Source: a virus. Taken from it: a DNA stretch of 23,414 nucleotides. Where the stretch lies: positions 1 through 23,414 of the IMG/VR virus record IMGVR_UViG_3300021964_000557. One strand, written 5' to 3'. Shown here piece by piece: positions 3,229-21,326 of this stretch (its first letter is position 1; each line of letters starts with the position of its first letter). The notes beneath the pieces are model-generated. The model was not told where the DNA came from. It made no database searches and saw only the letters and a program-made list of their open reading frames with translations. The position numbers and the translations under genes were made by a program.

Positions 3229-3683
3229 TGGCATACGTAGGAAGAATACCGCAAACGGGCGCATATCAACTGATTGATGATATCTCAGGCTCATTCAACG
3301 GCACACTAACAAGTTTCACATTACAGTCGGGCTCACAGAACATTACTGTAGAGAACGAGCAATCCCTGATCATCAGCATTTCGGGCGTTGTCCAGTACCC
3401 GAATTCCGCGTACACTGTGAGCGGCAACACCATAACATTCACCAGTGCCCCCCTCTCGACCGATACGTTTAGTGGCGTATTGTTAGGGAACGTATTTGAT
3501 ATAGGGACTCCAACCGATGCAACCGTAGGTCAAGCATCATTGAGCTCCACATTCATCGCGCAAAACGCACAGACATTTAACAACATAACCATAGGCGCAA
3601 GCAAGAACGCTTCTGCCGCGGGACCGATTACTGTCAGCGGAACTTTAACCATTCCATCTGGTAGTACTTTTGTGATAGTATAG
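3228..3683 (+). CDS. Short beta-rich tail/adhesin protein, GC-rich module
   Basis: This 151-residue protein begins MAYVGRIPQTGAYQLIDDIS, a fibre N-terminus related in style to the SYIGNQP type (a short anchor followed by a 'G.FNGTLTSFTLQ' strand). The central run SLIISISGVVQYPNSAYTV and NTITFTSAPLSTDTFSGVLLG is the common tail-fibre domain that also appears at 705-1355 (ALFINNVRQEPGSSYAYTA). The last 40 residues form a simple Ser/Thr-rich stem. It is visibly richer in GC than the genes on both sides (3361-3420 is about 52% G+C; 4021-4080 about 33%), with 'ggc', 'ccc' and 'cgc' codons. This suggests it was acquired separately from its neighbours. A reverse-oriented GGGGGCAC word lies at 3445-3452. 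Confidence 0.82.
   Translation: MAYVGRIPQTGAYQLIDDISGSFNGTLTSFTLQSGSQNITVENEQSLIISISGVVQYPNSAYTVSGNTITFTSAPLSTDTFSGVLLGNVFDIGTPTDATVGQASLSSTFIAQNAQTFNNITIGASKNASAAGPITVSGTLTIPSGSTFVIV
3445..3452 (-). repeat. GGGGGCAC word, copy 2
   Basis: Reverse copy in the GC-rich adhesin gene at 3228, sense strand read as Ser-Ala-Pro-Leu. Six G in a row on the reverse strand, followed by TGG. Confidence 0.7.
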
Positions 3684-6842: not shown

Positions 6843-6850
6843 GGGGGCAC
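6843..6850 (+). repeat. GGGGGCAC word, copy 3
   Basis: Forward copy in the gap directly before the ATG at 6858, where its G-run also supplies the Shine-Dalgarno-like sequence. Followed by GGG. Confidence 0.7.
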
Positions 6851-6857
6851 GGGCAAA

Positions 6858-8708
6858 ATGCCATTCGTACAATTAACAGCGCCTCCAGGGGTTATCACAG
6901 ACATCACAGACTACCAAGCGCAGATGCGATACACAAACGCAGACAAGGTGCGCTTCTTCCAGGGATATGCGGAGAAGATAGGCGGCTGGACTAAGAGGTT
7001 CAGTTCCGCGCAAATCAGTGGTGCGTGCCGAAACATTCTACCCCATCGTGATCTCAACGGAACCAAGATGATTCTCATGGGTACATCAACCCATGTCTAT
7101 ATTGAATACTCGGGTGTTGTTTATGATGTTACTCCTTACAGAACAGATACAGTTAGTTTAACAAATCCATACACAACAGGAGCGGCAGGTACTAGTACTG
7201 TTACAGTTACAGACGTATCACACGGTCTCGCGAATACCGACCCAGGTTCACGTGTGGTTATTGATACGGCGGTGACCTTAGATGGTATTACTATTGCGGC
7301 GGGCGAATATGTTGCAACTTATGTAAGTGCAAATACTTATACAATTGAAGGCTCAGGTACAGCTGTTACAGGTGGTGTGACAGGCGGCGGAGCTGTGGAC
7401 TTACGTTATCTCGTGAACAATGGTCCTTCCGATGGTTTAACAGGTTACGGTTATGGTGTAGGTTTATGGGGACAATCATCTTGGGGTACAGCAAGAAGTA
7501 CATCAGGTATTGTTTTGTCACCAAGAGTTTGGTCAATGGATGCGTGGGGTGAAGACATTGTAGCATCTGTAGGTGGTGGTGAAGATACTATTTATTATTT
7601 TGATATCAGCGCGTTTATCGCATCCCCTTCTACTTTCCGTGGTACAACTTTATCTTATTACATTACAAATACTTTAAGCGGTGATGCATCTCAAGTCCCG
7701 AGTAAAGTTGGACAAGTCATGGTATCCACACCAGACAGACACTTAATTTGTTTTGGTTCTAATCCTGTAGGTTCATCAGACTATGATCGAATGACTGTAC
7801 GCTTTTGTAACCAAGAAGATTTTCAGACATGGACACCTCAGCTAATTAATACAGCGGGTGAACAAAGACTAGGTACAGGTACAAACATTGAAGCTGTAGA
7901 AAAAGGTCGTGGTCAAATATTCTTATGGACAGATGTGGATGTCTATTCAATGCAGTTTATTGGTCCACCATTTACATTTTCATTCTCAGTGCTAGGAGAA
8001 ATCTCTGGTACCATATCCAAGAACGCGGCAACCACAATCGAGGGTGCTTCATTCTGGATGGGTGTGGATAACTTCTATATGTATGATGGTGCTGTGCGTA
8101 CTTTAGAATGCCCTGTATTGACACACATCTTTAATGACTTCAACCAAGTACAGCGCGAAAAAGTTTTCTGTGGACAGAATATTAAGTTCAATGAACTCTG
8201 GTGGTTCTATCCATCAGCGGGTTCTTTAGATGTAGATAAGTATGTTATCTATAATTACATTGATAAGACTTGGTCTATTGGTGACTTAGGTAGAACAGCG
8301 TGGGCAGATTCTAATATTTATTCTAATCCACTAGCGATTGATTCTTCTGGTATCCAATACAATCAAGAAGATGGAGTCGATGCGGCAGGTAGCGCGATTA
8401 CTGCTTTTGTCGAAACAGGTTTCTTTAATGGGGATCAGAATGGTGACAATGTTTACTTCTTAGATAGAGTGATTCCTGATGTCACATTTAAAAACGGCAG
8501 TGTAATGAAGTTTACATTAAAGACAAAGATATATCCTCAAGGCGAGCAGATAACCAAAGGACCATTCACAATCAATTCAACAGATGGTGATTTTGATTTT
8601 CGCGCTAGAGGTAGATCGTTTCAAGCAAAGTTTGAATCCGACACGACTGGTGTATCATGGAGATTAGGTACATGGCGTGCTGACGGTAGACAGGATGGAT
8701 TAAGGTAA
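6858..8708 (+). CDS. Tail/DNA-stabilisation beta-propeller protein (P22 gp10-like)
   Basis: This 616-residue virion protein begins MPFVQLTAPPGVITDITDYQ followed by KVRFFQGYAEKIGGWTKR, the usual opening of phage stabilisation proteins in which a 'VRF..GY.EKIGGW' strand starts a beta-propeller. Residues ~113-175 (TVTDVSHGLANTDPGSRVVI onward) are an inserted 'SHGL..GS.V' module with a Gly-rich end (GGVTGGGAVD). The later part has the family pattern: ADTH-like blades ending in LWTDVDVYSMQFIGPPFTF (~residues 353-372), GASFWMGVDNFYMYDGAV (~395-412) and ITAFVETGFFNGD near the C-terminus. In P22, gp10 sits under the portal and helps seal packaged DNA; the position here before ejection-type genes fits. 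Its Shine-Dalgarno region is the GGGGGCAC copy at 6843. The gp10 comparison is by pattern, not alignment. Confidence 0.78.
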   Translation: MPFVQLTAPPGVITDITDYQAQMRYTNADKVRFFQGYAEKIGGWTKRFSSAQISGACRNILPHRDLNGTKMILMGTSTHVYIEYSGVVYDVTPYRTDTVSLTNPYTTGAAGTSTVTVTDVSHGLANTDPGSRVVIDTAVTLDGITIAAGEYVATYVSANTYTIEGSGTAVTGGVTGGGAVDLRYLVNNGPSDGLTGYGYGVGLWGQSSWGTARSTSGIVLSPRVWSMDAWGEDIVASVGGGEDTIYYFDISAFIASPSTFRGTTLSYYITNTLSGDASQVPSKVGQVMVSTPDRHLICFGSNPVGSSDYDRMTVRFCNQEDFQTWTPQLINTAGEQRLGTGTNIEAVEKGRGQIFLWTDVDVYSMQFIGPPFTFSFSVLGEISGTISKNAATTIEGASFWMGVDNFYMYDGAVRTLECPVLTHIFNDFNQVQREKVFCGQNIKFNELWWFYPSAGSLDVDKYVIYNYIDKTWSIGDLGRTAWADSNIYSNPLAIDSSGIQYNQEDGVDAAGSAITAFVETGFFNGDQNGDNVYFLDRVIPDVTFKNGSVMKFTLKTKIYPQGEQITKGPFTINSTDGDFDFRARGRSFQAKFESDTTGVSWRLGTWRADGRQDGLR

Positions 8709-9250: not shown

Positions 9251-9258
9251 GTGCCCCC
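9251..9258 (-). repeat. GGGGGCAC word, copy 4
   Basis: Reverse copy in the gap between the genes ending at 9243 and starting at 9292; it forms one arm of the hairpin at 9252-9273. Followed on the reverse strand by GGCG. Confidence 0.7.
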
Positions 9259-9291: not shown

Positions 9292-10830
9292 ATGATGCAA
9301 GGATACGCAGGTCCAGTACAGCAAGGAGATATGGTCGTACGCGCGAACGAGGTTTCGCCAGGTATTACTGCACTCTTATCTAAACAGAACAGGAAGGGGG
9401 CACAGGGAATCTATGAACTTCCTAGTGCGAAACAGCCAGCCCCGAACTACTACAACATGGCATTAGACAATGTCCAAAACGATATTCGATCAGCGGCGCG
9501 TACCGTCAACTCATTAGCGCCCGAAGGTGAGCGACTAGCTTACATTAATCCACAAGAAGAAGGTATTTTAAAACTATTAGGTGGTTCAGGTCAACCTGAG
9601 CCTGTGACTGGTATTCCTTCTTATGCTCCTCCAGGCAGAGGGGCAACTGGAACAAGTCCACAATTCACAGGTTCTTACAGCCGCCCCAAAAGCGGAGGTG
9701 GTGGGGGCAATCAAAATAAGCCTGCACCTAAGCAAGGTGACCAATCTATATTAAGAGATTTAGAAAATGCAATGGCGGCTAGAGAAAAAGAAACGGGCGT
9801 TAAGATGGCTCCACGAATTACTGAACCTAAAAAAGAAAAAGGGTTCTTTGAAAAATTGTTTGGTGGTAATGATGAAGTTAAAGCAATTCAATCAGAAGTA
9901 GATTCGAAAATTGCAGAAGTTAAAAACGATCCTAACCTAACAAACTTCCAAAAGAATCAAATGATAGACAGACTTAAGTTCGCTAAAAGTCCTGAAGGCA
10001 GAAGCACTGGCTACAGTATGGGCGAACTATCCAAGATGATTATGTCAGGTGTTGACCAAAACAGATTAGGTAGCATAAGATTAGGCGGTAAAGATGCTAA
10101 ACAATTATTAGATGCAGGAGTTATCACAAAAGAAAATTACGATCAAGCTTTAGCTAACATTGAAAAGTATGGGCGTGGTGTGGTATTTGATCCAGTTAAA
10201 AAAATTCTAAGAACAGCCCCACCAACAGGTAAAGAATTTTTAGGTGATGTAACTAGGGGTGCTGGAAGTCTTTTAGAAAATTTACCTTTAATGCGACTTA
10301 TTAAATCATTAGGTGGCGGTGAAGAAGTTGAAAAAGAGCCTACTGAAAGTGAACAAGAATTTCAAGACAGAGTTAGATCAATATTATTAGGTTCAGGCGC
10401 AGTTGGTGGTGCAGGTATGGACCCAGGAACTGCAAGAGCAATGTACGGTCAAGAAAAGATGTTAGATTATGCAGGACTAAGTCCATCATTTTTTGATCCA
10501 GCCACGGCAGGTACAGGATTTAACTTAGCAACAGGACAATTTGGGGAGAGAGCTACCGTAGGACAACCTGCAATTAGCGCTCAAGCAGAAGGAGCTATTA
10601 CTCGAGCTATGTCTCCTAAAGATAGTGGTGGTGATAATATTCCATCAGCGGCTACAAGTACTACAGAAGAAGAAGAGGAAGAGACTACAGAAGGACTTCC
10701 GTATTTTTCATACGCTAGAAGATTTCAACAACCAATGACTTACCAAGATATTATTAAAAGAGCCTATGAAGGCACAGATAAAAATTTATTAGAAAGTTTA
10801 CAAGACGCAATAGCAAGAGGGACAGCTTAA
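9292..10830 (+). CDS. Large linker-rich virion protein, ejection-type candidate
   Basis: This 512-residue protein starts at ATG 9292 (a second ATG follows directly at 9295). The N-terminal third is Pro/Gly-rich and probably flexible, with PGRGATGTSPQFTG and a five-glycine run (residues 135-139). Residues ~145-345 are charged and helical (EKLFGGNDEVKAIQSEVDSK; DPNLTNFQKNQMIDRLKFAK). A Glu run (459-464) precedes a conserved-looking C-terminus, GLPYFSYARRFQQPMTYQDI. No enzyme motif or membrane helix is visible. It lies before three genes of internal-virion type and overlaps the next one as TAATG, so a role in the particle, perhaps as an ejection or scaffold-like protein, is likely. I do not recognise a named family. 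Confidence 0.75.
   Translation: MMQGYAGPVQQGDMVVRANEVSPGITALLSKQNRKGAQGIYELPSAKQPAPNYYNMALDNVQNDIRSAARTVNSLAPEGERLAYINPQEEGILKLLGGSGQPEPVTGIPSYAPPGRGATGTSPQFTGSYSRPKSGGGGGNQNKPAPKQGDQSILRDLENAMAAREKETGVKMAPRITEPKKEKGFFEKLFGGNDEVKAIQSEVDSKIAEVKNDPNLTNFQKNQMIDRLKFAKSPEGRSTGYSMGELSKMIMSGVDQNRLGSIRLGGKDAKQLLDAGVITKENYDQALANIEKYGRGVVFDPVKKILRTAPPTGKEFLGDVTRGAGSLLENLPLMRLIKSLGGGEEVEKEPTESEQEFQDRVRSILLGSGAVGGAGMDPGTARAMYGQEKMLDYAGLSPSFFDPATAGTGFNLATGQFGERATVGQPAISAQAEGAITRAMSPKDSGGDNIPSAATSTTEEEEEETTEGLPYFSYARRFQQPMTYQDIIKRAYEGTDKNLLESLQDAIARGTA
9396..9403 (+). repeat. GGGGGCAC word, copy 5
   Basis: Forward copy 145 bases after copy 4, read as Lys-Gly-Ala-Gln in the 512-residue protein. Followed by AGGG; surrounding ~100 bases are GC-rich. 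Confidence 0.7.
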
Positions 10831-11714
10831 TGGCATTTTTAGATTTTTTATTCGGGACTAAACAAGCAGCACAAGATACAACAACTCAGATAAAACTTCC
10901 TGAGTATATGGAAAAAGCTGCTGAGTCTTTAGTAGCAACTGCAGGTGATGTAGCGAAAGAGCAATACATTCCTTACACAGGTCCTAGACTTGCTACAATG
11001 TCACAAGCAGAAAAAGACGCAATAGCAAGAGCTCAAGCTCAAACAGGTATTGCAGGTACTCAAGCAGGTCAAGCATTCACTGCGGCAACAGCAGCGGGGG
11101 CACCGATTGGTCAAGCTGATCTTCAAAGATATATGGACCCATACATGACCAGCGTGGCGGACATCGCGGCAAGAGAAGCGCGAAGACAGTCTGCTATTGA
11201 ACAACAAGGTATTGCGGCGCAATCTGCACAAGCAGGTGCATTTGGTGGTTCACGCCAAGCTGTGTTGGAAGCTGAGCGTCAAAGAAATTTACAACAAGGT
11301 ATCTCTGATATCTATACACAAGCCCAGCAACAGGCTTTCCAAACTGCACTCGGCGCGGCACAACAAGAAAGACAGCAACAATTACAATCTGCATTAGGTA
11401 TGGCAAGCACTGGTCAAGCAGGTCAAGCGGCAAGACAAGCAGATTTTCAACAAATGATGGGCATTGGCGGATTACAAAGACAAATGGAGCAACAAGGTTT
11501 AGATGTAGGATACCAAACATTTATGCAAGAAAGAGATTATCCTAAACAACAACTTGGATTCTACTCTGATATTCTTCGTGGAGTTCCTACAGGTGAAACA
11601 AGAATGTATTCAGGTGCACCAATACAACAACCTAGTTTATTCTCACAAGCGATGGGTCTAGGTATCCAAGGATTAGGTGTAGCGGCAAATTTAGGATGGA
11701 GTCCTTTAGGTTAA
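10830..11714 (+). CDS. Ala/Gln-rich helical internal virion (ejection) protein
   Basis: This 294-residue protein begins MAFLDFLFGTKQAAQDTTTQ and has IKLPEYMEKAAESLVATAGD, then a very long Ala/Gln/Arg-rich helical part (FTAATAAGAPIGQADLQRYM; FGGSRQAVLEAERQRNLQQG; GAAQQERQQQLQSALGMAST). It ends with the hydrophobic LFSQAMGLGIQGLGVAANLG. The pattern 'QGIAAQSAQAGAFGGSRQAVLEAE' followed by Gln-rich helices is characteristic of one of the internal or ejection proteins in podoviruses (similar in style to T7 gp14 and P22 gp7). Those proteins leave the capsid with the DNA and help to build a channel in the host envelope. Its place directly before a charged helical protein and the giant protein matches the usual trio of ejection proteins. 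Confidence 0.78.
   Translation: MAFLDFLFGTKQAAQDTTTQIKLPEYMEKAAESLVATAGDVAKEQYIPYTGPRLATMSQAEKDAIARAQAQTGIAGTQAGQAFTAATAAGAPIGQADLQRYMDPYMTSVADIAAREARRQSAIEQQGIAAQSAQAGAFGGSRQAVLEAERQRNLQQGISDIYTQAQQQAFQTALGAAQQERQQQLQSALGMASTGQAGQAARQADFQQMMGIGGLQRQMEQQGLDVGYQTFMQERDYPKQQLGFYSDILRGVPTGETRMYSGAPIQQPSLFSQAMGLGIQGLGVAANLGWSPLG
11096..11103 (+). repeat. GGGGGCAC word, copy 6
   Basis: Forward copy in the Ala/Gln-rich protein, read as Ala-Gly-Ala-Pro; a GC-rich tract follows with GCGTGGCGGACATCGCGGC near 11151. Confidence 0.7.
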
Positions 11715-12708: not shown

Positions 12709-15700
12709 ATGGCAGAAGAAATAAAATACATACCAATTAGTGACGAAAAAGTCACATCCTTATTATCAGAAGCTTCTGCTACCTCAGCCCAAGGAGCGTC
12801 ATTATCCCAAAAACTTGCTCAAAGTCCATTAACAACTGAACCAACAAGAACTCCTAAAAATATAGCTTATGTAAGATTAGGCGATGATGCTGATAGTCCT
12901 ATGGTTCAGATAGATGCTGATGCTCCCCAAGAAGAAATACAATCACTTTTAAAAAATCCAGAACTAGAGAAAAAACTATTTGAACAAGGGTATGTTTACA
13001 AGTATGGTGTAGGCGCGGAAAGATACAACAGACCCGATGATTTAAACGACACTGCTTTTATGAAAGGTTTGAAAGGTGGTTGGACTGGTCTTAAGACTAT
13101 AGGAGCGGGGGCACTGGGAACCGTATTCGATTTACTGGGTGCAGAAGATTTAGAGAAAGCAACGAATGATGCTATTCAAAGATACCAACTAGAAGGACAA
13201 GCCAAACAATATATTAAAACAGATGATGGGGAAATAATTCCTTTCAGTACATCTGTCGAAGAAATATTTAATTCTGAAGCCAGAACAAAAGACTTTTTAA
13301 AATGGTTAAGTTTTAATGTGGGTCAAGGATTAGTAACCACCATTCCTATTTTTGCGGCAAGCTTAGTTAATCCCGTCATAGGTGTGGGAGCTGCTTACGG
13401 TATGGGTGTTGGTGATTCTCGAATCGCTCAGCTGGAAGCTACTGATTTTGAAAAAGCTAATGCTGGAATTTCTTTAGCTGCAGGTATCCCTTACGCGGCG
13501 GCAGAAAGATTTTTCGGTGCTGGTATGCGCTTGGCGGATTTATTAAATCCTGCTAAAGAAGGTGCAAAAGAAGCTTTTGAAAAAGTATTAAAAGAAAGTA
13601 CAGCAAAGACTATCGCGAAAGCTACAGGTAAAAGTATGCTGGGCGAAGCAGTGGCTGAAGGAAGTCAAACTGTTGTCACTGAAACTGCAGGCAAAACTGA
13701 AGAAGCCTTATACAAAGATCAAAGTATAATAGCAGGTCTATCTGATTTATACACAGATAAAAATTTCTATAAAAATATAGGTGAAGCGGCAGCTGCTGGT
13801 GCTGCGGGCGGTGGACCATTTGGTATTGCAGGTGGAGTTGCCCAAAGAATAAACATTAATGAGGCGGGTAAAGTTGATGTAAAAGATTCTAAAGAATACA
13901 CTGACCAAAGACCAATTGACGAAAACAATAAAGACCTTGTGGATAAGTTAGGTGAAGATTTTAAAAATAAAAAATATACTATTACTGGTGTAGGACAAAG
14001 CATAGGTATAGATGGTAAACCTATATTAGACGAAAATGAAAACCCCGTTAAGCCAACTTTTGAAATCAAAGGTGTTTATGATGACAAAGGTAAACGAAAA
14101 GTTATTTTAAAGGACACTACACCTGGAGCAGCGCGTACTTATTTAGATCAAGATGCTTCTATTTTAGATTATTTAAATGTAGAAGAAGATGTTGCAACAG
14201 ACAAAGTAACTACTCCTGTACTACAAGTGGGTGAAATATATACAGATAATAAAGGTAATAGATTTGAAATATTAGAAATATTAGACCCAGATAAGTTAGG
14301 AGTAACCAATAAAACTATTAGGTTTAAAGAGTTAGATAGACCAGATCGTGAAGTTGGTACTATGGATTACAATGGTTGGGTTAAAAATGTTAAAGGCGGG
14401 TCATTCCAAAGATCAAGTGAGAAACCTGTTTTTGATAAGCCTGGTGACTATGATAAAGTTAATGTTAAACCAGCTACAACTAAGCAAAAAGAAAAAGCTA
14501 AAAATATTTTAAAAGCTAGAGGCTACACAGATGGTGCTATTGATCGTATAGATTCCGCTGGTAATCGTGCTTTACTGATAGAAGCTAACAGCGAAGATTC
14601 CCAAAATTATATTTCACCAGAAGAAACAGAAAGACTAGGTCAACTAGGTTACCTAGAAGAAATGGCTAATGGGTTTACTGTTGAAGTTCCGCGCGGCGGC
14701 AAACAATCTATATATACAGCACAAAAAGTAAATGAGATTTTAAACAACACATCTATAAATAGAAAGACAGGTAAAAGTGTTGGCAGAGAAATTCTAGAAG
14801 ATATACTAGAGAACAACGTGGAGAATACAACTACTCCCGTAGGCAAAGAGGTAGTCGGTAGAACATCCGCCGTGCCCCCTCTGAGCGAACAGGAAATTGT
14901 TAATCAGTCAGACGAAAAGATAGCAAAGCAGTTATCTAAAATTGGTGATCAGTTACGAGATCCTAAAACACCAGAAAATAAAAAACAAGAAATACTTAAC
15001 TCTAGAGATATTTTAGATGTTGCTTCTTCTACAGAAATGTATCGCCCTGCAATAGATAGAAGATATGAGATGGAAAGTCTAGCCACTAGGATTGGATTTG
15101 GTGGTACTCCTGCCGCGATTATAGGTTACCAAAAAGCAATTGAGGGTCTAAAGAAACGAGTTGGTATTACTGAAGAAGATAGAGCTGAACAAATAAAACA
15201 ATTCCAAGATAGAATAGATTCTGCTGAAGAAGATTTAAGAAGATTTAATATTTTATATTCTTCTTTCGGATTTCCCCCATTAACTAGAGAACAATTTAAT
15301 AAAATAAAACACAACTCATTTCCTAAAAGAAATGACATACGCCAAATGTATCAGGGTAAACCTGAAGGAAACTTAACACAAGTTAAAGAAGTATGGGAAG
15401 CAACAGACGATTCTCAAGTTATTAAAGCCAGAGAAAAGCAAACTATTATTAATGATAATAAAATTAAAGCGAGACTTAATCAAACTTTCTTAGGTACAAT
15501 CAGCAATACTTTTTGGAATATGGATGGAGGCTATCCTGGGAACAAACCATCAGCTAATGCAGACTTAGCCGTAGTATATATGATGCCTAAAAGTTTTACC
15601 AAATTAGCTTTAAAAGAACCAGACTTAACTATGGCAAGACAATTGCAAAGACAAATTGCTTACGCTAGAGAAGGTACTAATGGTATCACTCCACCTTATT

Positions 15701-18700
15701 TAGAACTGACAGTAGAGCAAGATGAAAATAATAATTATACTGTAATTGTTAATGGACATGAAGGTAGAGGTAGAGCGCATTTCGCTAATAGTTTAAATCC
15801 AAACAAACCTATACCTGTTTTAATAAAAGTAAATCAAAAAGGTAAGAAGTATAAAAATTTAACATTAGCTAAAGGGGACAGTTACAAAGAAGTAAGGGAT
15901 AGAGTATTTAGAAATCCTAAGACTATTTATCAGAACGAAGCTCTCACTAAGATAGATGATCTTCCTGAAGAACAGCAAGTAGAATACAATCCTAAAGCTT
16001 ATACTTCTAAAGAGGTGCCTATTGTTGGATTCATTCATGACACTGATAGCAAGTTTGGTCCTATATTTAAAGATGATTATGAATATAATCCTTTTGGTAT
16101 GGATATTCAAATGGCGCAACTTGCGCCGAGATATACTCAAGAGTTTACAAAGAATATGCCCAGAGTATATACAGCATTAAGAAATGAATTAGATAGACTA
16201 GGCTTAACATATGTAAATTTAAGTATCGTTAATAGGTGGTTAGATGGTGCCAGAGCAAAAGGTAAATTTATATCACATCAAGACATAGCAACTCAAGCTT
16301 TGAATTTCCAGAAGCCTCAATTGATATCTGTATTAAATAGTCCTAAAGGGGAATATGGTGGAGTTGTTACTACTACTGATTCTCAATTAATGACACTAAG
16401 ACATGAAGCAATGCACGCTATGTTTAACAGTGGATTCTTTACAGATCAAGAAATGAAAGTGTTAAAAGATTATTCTAAAAGAGTTTGGGTAGATAAGTAT
16501 AATGTTAGAAATAGTTATTCGGGACAGCCAAATGCTTCTGAAGAATTATATATTGAAGAGGGAATAACATTTGCTTTCGCAGATTACTTAGCCAATAAGT
16601 ATGCAGCGAAAGGAATATTAGCGCAAGCTTTTGAAAGATTAAAAGCTTACTTAATAGCTTTAGGAAATGCGCTACGTGGTTTAGGATTTACAACAGCAGA
16701 AGATATATTTAATGATATAGATGCTGGAATGTTTAAAGAAAGAGTAGAAGAATACAAGAGATTAGAACGTAATAATATAATAATGAATAATAGTATTCTA
16801 GCTAAACAGTATGGTAAAGCTACTTTTGATACTCAGATTGTTAATGCTTTTGGTTCTCTATCAGATGCACCAGGTACACAACCCAATTACAAAAATAGTT
16901 TAGAGTATATTGATGAGCCATCATCACCAGATTTGGATACTTATATACCAGGTACTAGACAAACGCTTAGAAAAGAAATGCGTGAAATGGCTAACGATAT
17001 TAAATCGCAGGAAAAAGAAGAAGCACGTGGTGTAGTTACTGAAAAAGGTTTAGGTACTTTTAGCAGAGTATTATCACACGCTAGAATCTGGGCAAAGAAA
17101 TATCCTATTTTTGAAAAACTATATACTGCTGTAAATTTTAGAGATCAAAAGTCTAGAGAGTTACAAAGTAAGTTTGTAGAAATTTTAGGTAAGAGTTATT
17201 TAAAAGTAATCCGCAATCCTCAAGCTACAGATTTATTAAACAAAGCATTCGAAATATCTCAGCAAGTTCCTGGCAGATATAGAAGAGACCAGAATGGTCG
17301 AATAGTTTTTCGCGCTGATAGAGATGGTGATGGTGCTGATAGTAAAGTTAAAGCAGGGGATGTGGTTATCCTTGAAGGTGATTTAGCAGATGCTTACGAA
17401 AATGCACAAGAAGGTATTCAGTATATGCACAAAGAAATTGTTAGAGGTTTACTAGCTAATGATGCATCAACTGAATTATTAAATAGCGCAATTGCTTTAG
17501 CAATACAATATGAAGCATTAGATTTAACAGGCAAAACTTTTATCAATAATACAAAAGCTATCACAGAATTAACTGATAAAGATTTTGAGAATCTAAGTTA
17601 TGCTGACATTAATCAAATTACAACAGCTATAGCTAACTTACAAGAAACAATTCAAGACAACCCAGAGTTTTTAATTAACAGAGGTATCTCTACTGATGAA
17701 GCTAAAATTTTAAATAGTGAAATCGCTCGAGTACTGGGGGCACGGGATTCGGCTGAGGTCGCTGGGTCTGGTATGCTTGCCTTAAGTAGCGAATTAAAAA
17801 AGTATGATGATTTTACGAAAACAGATTACGTACCTTTACAAAGATTTGGTAACTATTTTATTGTGGTAAAAGATAAAGATAATAAGACTGTTGATTACAG
17901 ATTATTTGAAAGAGGATATTTTGGTGGAAGATTATCTAATGAAGAAAGGGAAGTGCGGGCTGAGCTTGAGGCGAAGTATGGTGGCAATACAGACTACACA
18001 ATATCAGAGTCCAGAGAAGTAAGTATCCAACAATTAAGAGATAGAGTGCAAGCAGATTTTGCTAGCATAGATTCCGCCGCAAGTTTTATATCTGATACCA
18101 ATAAAGAGTTATATAATCAAATAAGAAAAGAAATAGAAACTATATTAAACAAAGGAACTGATTTAACTAAAGGTCAAGTGTTAGGGTTCAGCGCTTTCAT
18201 TAAACCTCGTAAACAAGAAGGCGGTATTCCAGGATATAGTACTGATTTCGCTAGAGCAATTACCCAATATGGTTTGGCTAGTAGTAATTTTGCATCTGGC
18301 AATAGATTCAATCACACAATAGGTAAGGCTTGGCGAGATACTCAAGACGAAAAACAAAACCCAGATAAAAATTTAAGAGAAGCTTCTAATGATTGGTACC
18401 AATATGTATTAAATCCTAAACAAGAGTTAGCTAGTATTAGAAGATTAGGTTTCTGGTATTACCTTGGTGGTAATCTTTCTTCAGCATTCTTACAGTTAAT
18501 GAGTGTTGTGCAATTTAGTGGTCCAATATTAAGCACAATTTCTGGTAAGAAACAATCTGCCGCAATAGAATTATCTAAAGCATTTAAAGATGTTATGAAG
18601 ATGTTACAGTTTAATGGTAGAAGATACCAAGATGTTTATATAGATTTTAATAAACTTCCAGAAGACGTACGTGAAGACGCGATGGCTGATGTGTTTAATG

Positions 18701-20091
18701 GTACTATTAAACAAGGTATGGCTATGCATGAAGCAGGTATGCCACAAGGTGGCGGAATTGTTGGAAGAAATGAAAGATTAAAAAGAAATTTCAGAACATT
18801 CGAGAACACTGTTATTGGGGGTGTGTTTAATACTTTTGAAACTATTGCGCGTTTAACTGCTTACATCGCTACACATAGAATAATGCAACAAACAGACGCT
18901 ATGGAAAATGCTACTAAGTTTTTTAAAACAGATGCTGATTTCCAATCTAACATGGATAGGAATAACGGGGTGGCTACGCCTAGAATGGTAGCCCAACAAA
19001 TGTTGGAAGAAACTTTCGGTGTGTATGGTAAATTAAATAGACCTAAATATATGAGAGGTTGGGGTTCTGTGTTCTTCTTATTCCAGACATACATCAGTCA
19101 GATGTATAGTTTAATGATTAGAATGTTTAAAGACCGAGGTCCTGCAGGTAAAAAAGCGTTAGCTAAAATGATGTTAATGATTGCACTTACTGGCGGATTA
19201 TTAGGATTACCTGGTATGGATGAAATAGCGTGGTTAAGAGATTTAATAAGAAGTCGAGTAACTGGTATTGATAGAGATACTAGAGCAGAGCTTCGTAACA
19301 TGTTAGTAGAAGTGTCTAATCCTAAAGTAGCAGAATTTTTTGAAAATGGTATATTTAATGCATTAGCAAATGTGGATGTCCAAAGAAGATTATCTTTTGG
19401 TAATATTCCAGGATCAGCGCAAATACGCGCCATTGTAGGAATGATGGGTATAAATACTGGGGCAAGAGCTGAAGAATTTTTAGGAGCACCTGGTGCTATC
19501 TTATTCCAAAATGCTAGAAACTTTTTTGGAGCTTATGATAGAACTGGAGATTTCCCATTACAGGAATTTTTATATGCAGTAACTCCTACATTTATTACCA
19601 ACTTAATTAAAGCGGGTGATGTTGCGTTAGATGGTAGAGTTGAATCTAGATATGGCACAGTGTTAACAGATGATGCGGGAATATATGATGCCTTCTTACA
19701 AGGATTAGGTTTTACTCCAACTAAAGTATCTAAAGAAAGAGAACTTTTAAGATTAGAAAAATTAAACGCTGGTCAAAATTCTTTAGTACAAAGTAGAATG
19801 AATACTAAAGTAACTGCCGCTTACAAGAAAATATATAGTGGCATGATGCAAGAGGATTTTAATTTACAGCTGGAAGGTCAAGAAGATTTAAGAGAAATAC
19901 TTCAAACATTATTTGCACATAACTCTAAACAAGACTTGGCAGGTCAATTAAATGTTGACGTACCAAGACTTGCCAGCGAAGCCTTGAAAGATTTAATAAA
20001 AGAATACAGGCTTCTAAAACAGGGATCTAAAGTAATACCTCTAAATGTTAAGAATGCTAAAGACTTAGGGGTAATGTACGATATACCCTAG
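12709..20091 (+). CDS. Giant polyvalent ejection protein, zincin-like and PLxRFG motifs
   Basis: This 2460-residue protein is the largest in the window, one uninterrupted frame. Residues ~195-240 and ~358-378 are Gly/Ala-rich and hydrophobic. N-G-H-E-G-R-G-R-A at ~1015-1023 is a motif I associate with phage polyvalent proteins. LRHEAMHAMF puts HExxH at 1232-1236, with EEGITFAFADYL (E1283/E1284) as a possible third metal ligand, suggesting a zinc metallopeptidase-like domain. PLQRFG at 1709-1714 in DYVPLQRFGNYFIVV is the hallmark of PLxRFG-domain proteins. Near the C-terminus, a hydrophobic stretch (~2151-2168; LAKMMLMIALTGGLLGLPG) is typical of that family. Such proteins are carried in the capsid, enter the cell with the DNA and may act on host targets. 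Activity is inferred from motifs. The gene has no Shine-Dalgarno but two leader hairpins; three GGGGGCAC copies lie inside (13107, 14872, 17736). Confidence 0.85.
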   Translation: MAEEIKYIPISDEKVTSLLSEASATSAQGASLSQKLAQSPLTTEPTRTPKNIAYVRLGDDADSPMVQIDADAPQEEIQSLLKNPELEKKLFEQGYVYKYGVGAERYNRPDDLNDTAFMKGLKGGWTGLKTIGAGALGTVFDLLGAEDLEKATNDAIQRYQLEGQAKQYIKTDDGEIIPFSTSVEEIFNSEARTKDFLKWLSFNVGQGLVTTIPIFAASLVNPVIGVGAAYGMGVGDSRIAQLEATDFEKANAGISLAAGIPYAAAERFFGAGMRLADLLNPAKEGAKEAFEKVLKESTAKTIAKATGKSMLGEAVAEGSQTVVTETAGKTEEALYKDQSIIAGLSDLYTDKNFYKNIGEAAAAGAAGGGPFGIAGGVAQRININEAGKVDVKDSKEYTDQRPIDENNKDLVDKLGEDFKNKKYTITGVGQSIGIDGKPILDENENPVKPTFEIKGVYDDKGKRKVILKDTTPGAARTYLDQDASILDYLNVEEDVATDKVTTPVLQVGEIYTDNKGNRFEILEILDPDKLGVTNKTIRFKELDRPDREVGTMDYNGWVKNVKGGSFQRSSEKPVFDKPGDYDKVNVKPATTKQKEKAKNILKARGYTDGAIDRIDSAGNRALLIEANSEDSQNYISPEETERLGQLGYLEEMANGFTVEVPRGGKQSIYTAQKVNEILNNTSINRKTGKSVGREILEDILENNVENTTTPVGKEVVGRTSAVPPLSEQEIVNQSDEKIAKQLSKIGDQLRDPKTPENKKQEILNSRDILDVASSTEMYRPAIDRRYEMESLATRIGFGGTPAAIIGYQKAIEGLKKRVGITEEDRAEQIKQFQDRIDSAEEDLRRFNILYSSFGFPPLTREQFNKIKHNSFPKRNDIRQMYQGKPEGNLTQVKEVWEATDDSQVIKAREKQTIINDNKIKARLNQTFLGTISNTFWNMDGGYPGNKPSANADLAVVYMMPKSFTKLALKEPDLTMARQLQRQIAYAREGTNGITPPYLELTVEQDENNNYTVIVNGHEGRGRAHFANSLNPNKPIPVLIKVNQKGKKYKNLTLAKGDSYKEVRDRVFRNPKTIYQNEALTKIDDLPEEQQVEYNPKAYTSKEVPIVGFIHDTDSKFGPIFKDDYEYNPFGMDIQMAQLAPRYTQEFTKNMPRVYTALRNELDRLGLTYVNLSIVNRWLDGARAKGKFISHQDIATQALNFQKPQLISVLNSPKGEYGGVVTTTDSQLMTLRHEAMHAMFNSGFFTDQEMKVLKDYSKRVWVDKYNVRNSYSGQPNASEELYIEEGITFAFADYLANKYAAKGILAQAFERLKAYLIALGNALRGLGFTTAEDIFNDIDAGMFKERVEEYKRLERNNIIMNNSILAKQYGKATFDTQIVNAFGSLSDAPGTQPNYKNSLEYIDEPSSPDLDTYIPGTRQTLRKEMREMANDIKSQEKEEARGVVTEKGLGTFSRVLSHARIWAKKYPIFEKLYTAVNFRDQKSRELQSKFVEILGKSYLKVIRNPQATDLLNKAFEISQQVPGRYRRDQNGRIVFRADRDGDGADSKVKAGDVVILEGDLADAYENAQEGIQYMHKEIVRGLLANDASTELLNSAIALAIQYEALDLTGKTFINNTKAITELTDKDFENLSYADINQITTAIANLQETIQDNPEFLINRGISTDEAKILNSEIARVLGARDSAEVAGSGMLALSSELKKYDDFTKTDYVPLQRFGNYFIVVKDKDNKTVDYRLFERGYFGGRLSNEEREVRAELEAKYGGNTDYTISESREVSIQQLRDRVQADFASIDSAASFISDTNKELYNQIRKEIETILNKGTDLTKGQVLGFSAFIKPRKQEGGIPGYSTDFARAITQYGLASSNFASGNRFNHTIGKAWRDTQDEKQNPDKNLREASNDWYQYVLNPKQELASIRRLGFWYYLGGNLSSAFLQLMSVVQFSGPILSTISGKKQSAAIELSKAFKDVMKMLQFNGRRYQDVYIDFNKLPEDVREDAMADVFNGTIKQGMAMHEAGMPQGGGIVGRNERLKRNFRTFENTVIGGVFNTFETIARLTAYIATHRIMQQTDAMENATKFFKTDADFQSNMDRNNGVATPRMVAQQMLEETFGVYGKLNRPKYMRGWGSVFFLFQTYISQMYSLMIRMFKDRGPAGKKALAKMMLMIALTGGLLGLPGMDEIAWLRDLIRSRVTGIDRDTRAELRNMLVEVSNPKVAEFFENGIFNALANVDVQRRLSFGNIPGSAQIRAIVGMMGINTGARAEEFLGAPGAILFQNARNFFGAYDRTGDFPLQEFLYAVTPTFITNLIKAGDVALDGRVESRYGTVLTDDAGIYDAFLQGLGFTPTKVSKERELLRLEKLNAGQNSLVQSRMNTKVTAAYKKIYSGMMQEDFNLQLEGQEDLREILQTLFAHNSKQDLAGQLNVDVPRLASEALKDLIKEYRLLKQGSKVIPLNVKNAKDLGVMYDIP
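13107..13114 (+). repeat. GGGGGCAC word, copy 7
   Basis: Forward copy in the N-terminal region of the giant gene, read as Ala-Gly-Ala-Leu; followed by TGGGAAC. Confidence 0.7.
14872..14879 (-). repeat. GGGGGCAC word, copy 8
   Basis: Reverse copy in the giant gene, sense read as Ala-Val-Pro-Pro. 14841-14890 is about 60% G+C; the 50 bases before and after are about 36% and 32%. Confidence 0.75.
17736..17743 (+). repeat. GGGGGCAC word, copy 9
   Basis: Forward copy in the giant gene, read as Leu-Gly-Ala-Arg, just before the PLxRFG region. 17731-17780 is about 64% G+C; 17681-17730 is about 34% and 17791-17840 about 26%. Confidence 0.75.
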
Positions 20092-21326
20092 CACATCCAA
20101 GAAACCCAATCTTTAGACTTCTTTTTAATAGGCTCATCAACTACTACAGGTACTTGAAAAGTTACGCCGTATTCTGGGTGGGTAAACCATAAAGCCTGTT
20201 GAGGTCTCTCTGATGTGAATCTATTTGAGTAGGCATATTCATCATAGCCTTTTGTGGAACCATTAACGATACAACCTTTTAAAGATATGTATTGGTGATA
20301 GTGTCCCATGATTACATAATCAATTGTTTTGTTTTGGTTATTGTATTCTTGCTTTATCTTCTGCACACCGCGCGCAATCGGACCAAGCATTCCCACAATC
20401 CCCGTGCCCCCCGCCACTCCGAGGCGATCACCATGTGTTAGCAGGTAGTTAACACCGTAAACTTTATATACGGTATCAAATCCTGTAGGTATTTGGAATT
20501 GGATTCGCTTGTCATTTTTAAAATGTCTAGCCAACAGATTGTATAACATCCAATCGTAGTTGGTTTTCGCGGCTTGCTTGTGGCGATATTGTTTATATGT
20601 ACGAGAGTGGTTACCAAACGTACAAGGCACAAATACTTTACCAAATACATCCGCAAATTTACCTAACGCCCATGTGAGATTGTCCAGTAAATCTAAGACA
20701 TGCTCAATATTAGAGCCATCATTACTCTCAGCTAGCTCATCATGAATATCACCCGAGATCATATCACCGCCTAACGCACAGATAATCCCAGGATATTTAG
20801 GATTAACCATATGGTTAGTGCATAGGTCTATGGTCGTATTGATTACGTTCTTGAATCTTCTCAAAGCAATTGCTCTATCATATTCATTGATACCATTGAC
20901 CGCTTCTTTGTATACCACCTCGCCCCAGTGAAAGTCTGAGAGGAATATCGTTGGCACACCAGGTGCCCCCTTGGCAGGGGTATTCTTCGTCAACCATTTG
21001 GGTGATTTAACTTCATGCTTCTCTGCCTTGAGCAAACTGTCTTTAAGTTTTCGATGAGATAGATTCTCTTTGGCTAGTAAATCTACTTGCCTTTTCATAT
21101 CACGCATCTCTGCGTCATGTGCATACTGCTGTTCAATCAATGCCGCCTCAGCGTCGGGGGGCACCAATGTGGGTTTAACCCCTTGCAGTTGTGCTTGTTC
21201 AATTCTCTCAATGAGAGTAGTGCGCGGGATTCCTAGCTCTCTAGAAGCCGCCGCTTTATTGCCTTTGTTTCTGATGACTGCATTAAGTGCATCAATCAGT
21301 ATAGTTTTTGCTATTGTTTTACCCAT
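20088..21326 (-). CDS. Fis-type HTH fused to calcineurin-like metallophosphoesterase
   Basis: The start is ATG at 21326, not the earlier in-frame ATG at 21485, because CAGGAG sits six bases upstream, the promoter lies just before it, and the extra 53 residues would overlap the divergent gene. The product has 412 residues. Residues ~6-44 form a Fis-family helix-turn-helix (LIDALNAVIRNKGNKAAASR, then ELGIPRTTLIERIEQ). A Pro-rich linker and coiled coil (~63-108) follow. The C-terminal ~285 residues are a calcineurin-like phosphoesterase with all metal motifs: D131-F-H133, G-G-D188, G-N239-H240, H298-G-D300 and G-H342-Y-H344. The family includes nucleases (Mre11/SbcD) and other phosphodiesterases. 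The HTH suggests a DNA target. It is the only reverse gene; its TAG stop overlaps the giant gene's stop within CTAG. Three GGGGGCAC copies lie in it. Confidence 0.9.
   Translation of the reverse strand: MGKTIAKTILIDALNAVIRNKGNKAAASRELGIPRTTLIERIEQAQLQGVKPTLVPPDAEAALIEQQYAHDAEMRDMKRQVDLLAKENLSHRKLKDSLLKAEKHEVKSPKWLTKNTPAKGAPGVPTIFLSDFHWGEVVYKEAVNGINEYDRAIALRRFKNVINTTIDLCTNHMVNPKYPGIICALGGDMISGDIHDELAESNDGSNIEHVLDLLDNLTWALGKFADVFGKVFVPCTFGNHSRTYKQYRHKQAAKTNYDWMLYNLLARHFKNDKRIQFQIPTGFDTVYKVYGVNYLLTHGDRLGVAGGTGIVGMLGPIARGVQKIKQEYNNQNKTIDYVIMGHYHQYISLKGCIVNGSTKGYDEYAYSNRFTSERPQQALWFTHPEYGVTFQVPVVVDEPIKKKSKDWVSWMC
20404..20411 (-). repeat. GGGGGCAC word, copy 10
   Basis: Reverse copy in the metallophosphoesterase gene (sense for that gene, Ala-Gly-Gly-Thr-Gly). 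20361-20430 is about 67% G+C. Followed by GGGGATTG. Confidence 0.75.
20963..20970 (-). repeat. GGGGGCAC word, copy 11
   Basis: Reverse copy in the metallophosphoesterase gene, read there as Lys-Gly-Ala-Pro. Followed by CTGG. Confidence 0.7.
21157..21164 (+). repeat. GGGGGCAC word, copy 12
   Basis: Forward copy, antisense to the metallophosphoesterase gene, whose codons read Val-Pro-Pro-Asp here (the linker after the HTH). It lies 194 bases after copy 11, in opposite orientation. Confidence 0.7.

Follow-up and report, generated by a model that had tools for sequence, protein, structure and literature searches.

A dispersed G-rich octamer under DNA-level selection in a phage family and its possible Chi-like role

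The octamer GGGGGCAC is a real, family-wide signal of phage DNA, under strong selection that acts on the DNA and is not driven by the encoded proteins. It is spread in both orientations along the whole genomes of an uncultivated phage family, probably a marine one, and fits none of the phage dispersed-site systems that could be put to the test. We favour, with a probability of roughly one in three, the reading that it is a Chi-like signal for DNA-end processing, of which a nuclease encoded by the phage itself would be the likelier reader. The G+C-rich island noticed around one of the copies by a sequence-only reading is a minor consequence, mostly explained, and the word is the more interesting object.

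Occurrence in the window and in the phage family

The window, that is the whole stretch of 23,414 nucleotides analysed, is a virus record of 23.4 kb that carries podovirus-like genes. The word occurs in it 12 times (seven copies on the plus and five on the minus strand) against 0.21 expected, a count reached in none of 100 shuffles, and ranks first among the 8-mers of the window for over-representation. The plus-strand copies are at 93-100, 6843-6850 (intergenic, directly 5' of the ATG at 6858), 9396-9403, 11096-11103, 13107-13114 (kept in 10 near loci), 17736-17743 and 21157-21164, and the minus-strand copies at 3445-3452, 9251-9258 (intergenic, and diverging from the copy at 9396, 145 bp away), 14872-14879, 20404-20411 and 20963-20970. 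The copy at 17736, hereafter the focal copy, is read as the codons L-G-A-R in the gene of a 2460-aa virion protein, while those at 20404, 20963 and 21157 lie within the nuclease gene discussed below, where the copy at 20404 covers the codons G-G-T and that at 21157, near the start of the gene, encodes V-P-P on the opposite strand. The copies at 14872 and 20404 are the eighth and the tenth of the sequence-only reading. The gene of the 2460-aa protein (12709-20091) takes up one third of the record; only the C-terminal third of the protein matches a phage family, phrog_11358, with a weak resemblance to virion proteins of F116-like phages. Two further words, GCGGCAG (13 copies versus 0.8 expected) and AGAAGAT (28 versus 4.9), are also over-represented in the window by counts uncorrected for codon usage, and an Rfam search of the window gave no match to an RNA family.

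The motif is a family trait that ends at the boundary of the family. The six largest relatives examined carry 10-27 copies of GGGGGCAC each versus 0.3-0.4 expected, the largest family records being of about 50-60 kb. In most relatives it is the top 8-mer, and in the records of 20 relatives it is found 3-27 times, the reversed word used as a control appearing in two of these records only, once each. Loci were gathered in three ways, through the nuclease gene, the terminase and the DNA polymerase, and enrichment within the family was found in all of them. The PolA-anchored loci, picked without regard to the nuclease, hold 257 copies versus 4.2 expected and no reversed word, and the terminase-anchored loci of the family (75-86% identity) hold 26 occurrences of GGGGGCA versus 1.8 expected; in the next terminase group, at about 40% identity, GGGGGCAC occurs 4 times versus 8.1 expected. 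No copy was found in the stretches examined of the cultured or complete phages HTVC027P, 023Pt_psg01 and DSL-LC04 (terminase about 38%), nor in those of the more distant phages CRP-901, CRP-810 and ct7QV12, and no phage paper containing the word was found in the literature searched. Along the genomes of the family the word is kept about once per 2-4 kb (a density of about 0.2-0.6/kb), with a spacing more even than random in 10 of 10 genomes, weakly in each (P 0.03-0.23).

Selection at the DNA level

That the word could be a by-product of codon usage or of repeated peptides, devoid of function, has a probability next to nil. The codons do favour in part the same-strand copies (83-95% same-strand expected), but shuffling of synonymous codons yields 0.15-0.44 copies per genome versus the 5-18 observed in coding sequence (in two clades the variant AGGGGGCA was substituted for the word in these shuffles), and copies exist on the opposite strand and between genes; the shuffles thus refute a codon or peptide origin. 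When the coding copies of the family genomes are pooled, 46 are found on the same strand as the gene versus 2.3 in the synonymous shuffle, and 21 on the opposite strand versus 0.2; therefore the orientation with respect to transcription is neutral, or the opposite one is slightly favoured. The pooled noncoding sequence has 34 copies in 48 kb, i.e., 0.70/kb versus about 0.24/kb in coding sequence, the copies being mostly intragenic and the intergenic enrichment about 3-fold. Also against a by-product, the copy at 21157 does not vary at all among the 18 distinct homologs, a behaviour shared by 6% of the other fourfold sites; at 20404 the 8-mer is found intact in 17 of these 18, and the copy at 20963 is kept in one third of the homologs.

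Form and turnover of the site

The word is embedded in an extended consensus that approximates AAA-GGGGGCAC-GG..A; that of 38 site families is an A-rich stretch, GGGGGCAC and G(G/C)..A, and AAAGGGGGCACGGAGA is an extended form carrying the word. The GGGGCA core is constant across clades; at the first position either G or A is found, and CA is followed by C in the clade of the window, in many cases by G in another clade, and by A or C in a third one. This form supports what the sequence-only reading had offered as a fallback, namely a larger site that is exact in its core alone, and such a clade-wise drift of the edges is the pattern that would be expected from a slowly changing reader.

The focal copy is retained in the homologous locus L018, while in L028, L021, L022, G003 and G001 the focal position has no site and a copy is found 18 bp downstream, within the codons E-G-A-P-G (GAG GGG GCA CCT). 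In a general test, a nearby copy that could compensate for a lost site was found for 16.0% of the site-less homologs and for 16.3% of random positions; therefore the downstream copy is regarded as turnover and not as proven compensation, and compensation as a general tendency was rejected. Wherever two copies are closely spaced in near relatives, at 144-228 bp, the pair diverges, the minus copy preceding the plus one. Such pairs are seen at 9251/9396 and 20963/21157 in the window, and at 37086/37235 in G002, 49226/49391 in G006 and 41751/41979 in G003; more distant relatives have converging pairs too. In L090 (11540-11600) and its homologs (e.g., L078:6568 and L040:699) an intergenic copy is placed just 3' of a TATAAT-like box and precedes a conserved stretch, AAAGAACCTT; it is present in all the homologs aligned, and an extra role is possible there.

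The G+C-rich island

The G+C values given by the sequence-only reading are correct (0.64 over 17731-17780, between 0.34 over 17681-17730 and 0.283 over 17781-17840, with 0.60 over 14841-14890 and 0.671 over 20361-20430 for two other copies), and to this extent its observation stands; a wide island around the sites does not. Windows of 50 bases with at least 58% G+C contain 11 of the 12 copies, and many such windows are free of copies. On average in the window, the flanking G+C is 0.545 up to 12 bases from the copies versus 0.398 for GC-rich 8-mer controls (P<0.001), 0.431 versus 0.395 at 12-50 bases (P=0.035) and 0.417 versus 0.397 at 50-100 bases (P=0.13), and beyond 100 bases it is at background (0.378). 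The sequence-only reading let the islands run some 50-100 bases past the 8-mer, and what holds of this is a rise over mainly about 12 bases and, weakly and in the window, to about 50. The averaged G+C does not drop to background immediately outside the word in the window, and in most family genomes no excess is left beyond about 12 bp: among the relatives compared, an excess at 12-50 bases is seen only in the near relative G002, and G003, G006, G012 and G013 have none. What is left of the excess at 4-17 codons once amino-acid and gene effects are taken out amounts to +0.038 for the window and to a mean of +0.007 over 12 genomes relative to GC-rich control words (positive in 8 of 12). Because the excess is missing in most family genomes, the modest island is peculiar to the window and its nearest relative and is not a property of the site.

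A further claim was that the islands use GC-rich codons with no obvious protein reason. The focal stretch, of 17 codons (RVLGARDSAEVAGSGML), has a G+C expected from its amino acids of 0.488 versus 0.351 for the gene; the four codons of the site have 0.83, the codons 3' of it 0.58 versus about 0.49 expected, and in relatives without a site at the focal codon the G+C of this place is about 0.5 where a similar Gly/Ala-rich linker is kept. Relative to window-wide codon usage, z over ±17 codons is 0.61 at the focal site, where the Gly/Ala codons account for the composition and the claim fails; at the copies at 14872 (z 3.3) and 20404 (z 5.1) the G+C is above expectation. The stretch at 17731-17780 is not a separate feature, and the island is mostly the 8-mer, its consensus extension of about five bases on each side and the Gly/Ala-rich codons. 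It would be a by-product, the 8-mer and its extended consensus being placed where the protein tolerates Gly/Ala codons.

The composition had been attributed to recombination tracts or GC-biased conversion. When homologs bearing the site were compared with site-less ones, averaging over 25 site families, their G+C was higher by 4.7% at 3-12 bp, which corresponds to the extended consensus, by 1.3% at 12-50 and by 1.7% at 50-100, and therefore there is no decaying island; in the focal family the difference at 12-50 is -4.9%, opposite in sign, the site-less homologs being not poorer in G+C. The break-points of identity between relatives, whose clustering at the sites had been proposed as a check, are not enriched within 200 bp of them (0.21 versus 0.18, P=0.47), and the somewhat short median distance from site to break-point (423 versus 615 bp, P=0.016) is a weak effect confounded by gene boundaries. 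Although this distance and the small synonymous excess near the sites of the window speak for recombination hot spots with GC-biased conversion, this explanation has only a very slim chance and is unsupported because the differences between paired homologs are small and the break-points are not in excess near the sites; with the composition of the relatives, the paired comparison largely refutes it. A recombination function of the sites is possible, a G+C footprint of recombination is not supported, and a G+C island at a word of this kind does not by itself imply biased gene conversion.

A candidate reader

The gene at 20091-21323 on the minus strand (phrog_284, 6e-47) encodes a family-wide nuclease that is the candidate reader of the motif. 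It joins a long helix and a metallophosphatase domain to an N-terminal helix-turn-helix of the Fis type (residues 2-46, 21186-21320 on the minus strand, AlphaFold pLDDT 76-88; an HTH_8 match in 16 of 16 members). The AlphaFold model, built from 33 sequences, has a mean pLDDT of 70, and its best seven PDB matches in Foldseek are all Mre11/SbcD (E 7e-6 to 1e-4, with a TM of only 0.32-0.46); a PDB search with the sequence gave no sequence-level match. The putative metal-binding residues D130, H132, D187, N238, H239, H297, H341 and H343 are invariant. The model thus predicts a fold of the Mre11/SbcD metallophosphatases, a fold of DNA-end nucleases; the fold and the metal-binding residues are what the phage protein has in common with these enzymes, from which it differs by the Fis-type helix-turn-helix and the long helix.

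The nuclease is present in every family genome tested, and in 17 outer records both the motif and the helix-turn-helix nuclease are absent. Among the 41 early and replication ORFs of G003 it is the only one with a Pfam helix-turn-helix match, the family of the terminase small subunit being the other expected DNA binder. The same genomes encode a Sak4-like annealing protein, a PD-(D/E)XK exonuclease, a family A polymerase and a DUF3987/primase-like gene.

Possible roles of the word

In the favoured reading, the A-rich stretch, GGGGGCAC and GG..A would together make up a DNA-level, orientation-neutral signal along the entire phage genome. A DNA-end-processing nuclease would travel along the phage DNA, read the asymmetric G-rich word and change its activity there, by halting, by being attenuated or by loading an annealing protein. 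In this way the ends and concatemers of the phage would be shielded and channelled into recombination, and unmarked host DNA would be degraded. If the reader is the protein encoded at 20091-21323, it would work with the Sak4-like annealing protein and the PD-(D/E)XK exonuclease, whose presence in the same genomes is consistent with this role, as are the enrichment, the selection on DNA, the dispersal on both strands, the predicted fold, the single helix-turn-helix among the ORFs of G003 and the joint presence in the family and joint absence in the outer records of motif and nuclease. This co-occurrence, however, amounts to one phylogenetic event and is true of other genes of the family too, and the co-variation of changes in the helix-turn-helix with those at the motif edges is loose and confounded by kinship. 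Moreover, distant homologs with the helix-turn-helix (L127, L132, L304-L350) are found in genomes not enriched in GGGGGCA (3 versus 20.6 expected in the AT-rich set), site-less homologs have no excess of nearby compensating copies, and GGGGGCAC is asymmetric, unlike the symmetric sites that Fis-type domains usually bind as dimers. The fuller proposal of a self-contained phage system, in which the helix-turn-helix/Mre11 nuclease would read the word as a genome-wide self tag, spare or recombine tagged DNA and degrade untagged host DNA, tag and reader co-evolving by clade, is rather doubtful. With a phage-encoded reader, the word would be the equivalent of Chi in a phage and would serve as a tag distinguishing self from non-self.

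The known Chi sites are mostly GC-rich 5-8-mers with a spacing of about 3-5 kb, and in some species they have no polarity (PMC5959072, PMC8022716). As a GC-rich asymmetric octamer, present about once per 2-5 kb and tolerated in genes, the word resembles these sites of RecBCD/AddAB, and it is absent from the published lists of Chi motifs compared (PMC5959072, PMC8022716). It might be the Chi, or a Chi-like sequence, of a host RecBCD/AddAB that the phage carries at high density in order to survive degradation and recombine; phages without RecBCD inhibitors do over-represent Chi (PMC3784561), the G-rich octamer, its dispersal and its density agree with this, and a clade-wise variation of the edges would be expected if the signal belonged to the host. 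Nevertheless, in 398 Pseudomonadota genomes GGGGGCAC does not exceed about 0.08/kb, broadly equal to the reversed control, so that none of these 398, which sample Pseudomonadota only, reaches a phage-like density; the excess over expectation is tens of times, versus about 2-fold for Chi as known from E. coli and Salmonella. A scan of genome contigs for the host found only a distant nuclease homolog, on an Achromobacter contig. This role is rather unlikely, and were it true the word could be used to trace the host and its Chi. That the word is bound by a phage regulator or a DNA-architecture protein, acting as a stoperator-like roadblock or in condensation or packaging, is quite unlikely. The stoperators of cluster A mycobacteriophages, which number 20-30 and for the most part share one orientation relative to transcription (PMC6550527), are likewise phage-borne, asymmetric and subject to consensus drift by subclade, comparable with the 10-27 copies per 50-60 kb genome seen here, and the intergenic enrichment would suit such a site. 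The word has a shorter core, however, and is not oriented with transcription, the opposite orientation being the more over-represented after codon correction, and on orientation a stoperator fails; a search of 10 family records, some of them incomplete, gave no PF00589 integrase, and that of 41 ORFs of G003 no repressor-like helix-turn-helix gene.

Site-specific nicking has little to recommend it as an explanation. Motifs of this kind, kept across whole groups of T5-, phiKMV- and tf-like phages, are similarly short and dispersed (e.g., a 9-mer with 13-14 copies per genome), but all those described lie on one strand (PMC3517423, PMC11780129), while the word is near-equal on the two strands, as in the window so in the relatives, and nicks on both strands of the diverging pairs would risk breaks; on strand distribution a nick motif fails. 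A signal for replication, for instance one recognised by the primase on the lagging strands of both forks, is very improbable: the dispersal on both strands and the DUF3987/primase-like gene agree with it, but same-strand gaps reach about 12 kb in G003, far above the length of Okazaki fragments, and the word is longer than the known primase sites, of about 3-5 bases. A polar sequence of the KOPS type was rejected, as the strands show no polarity and the orientations interleave in every genome. With DNA uptake sequences (DUS/USS), which belong to competent hosts and occur at about 1/kb, the word has in common the presence on both strands, the A-rich flank and the intergenic enrichment; they differ in being a feature of a competent host, and no such host was found among the 398 Pseudomonadota genomes.

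Motifs and genes of other phages and replicons

In the genomes with distant nuclease homologs no equally clear substitute motif was found. A candidate second motif in L364 proved to be a tandem peptide repeat, and CAGGCACA lies largely within repeated protein sequence, with a 3-12-fold residual after codon correction. On the Achromobacter contig TAGTATATC was considered as a parallel case and rejected; with their -10-like TATACTA boxes and a -35-like sequence upstream, its copies look like the -10 boxes of a replicon-specific promoter, and 21 of the 21 copies of the 7.2-Mb genome are on one 487-kb contig (G021 contig C5; L127, L134-L143). In the AT-rich phages L304-L350, GGG words are strongly avoided (GGGCAC 4 times versus 89 expected), the opposite of the family of the window. 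The phage 023Pt_psg01 (L131) has its own frequent word, CCACCACC, found 42 times versus 0.6-1.3 expected, codons and proteins accounting for about half of the coding copies. Finally, a single protein of L090 (4341-5423) matches both the uracil-DNA glycosylase superfamily and the 3'-5' exonuclease domain of DNA polymerase I; its gene lies near a separate polymerase A gene, and it may be a UDG-exonuclease fusion within a split polymerase.
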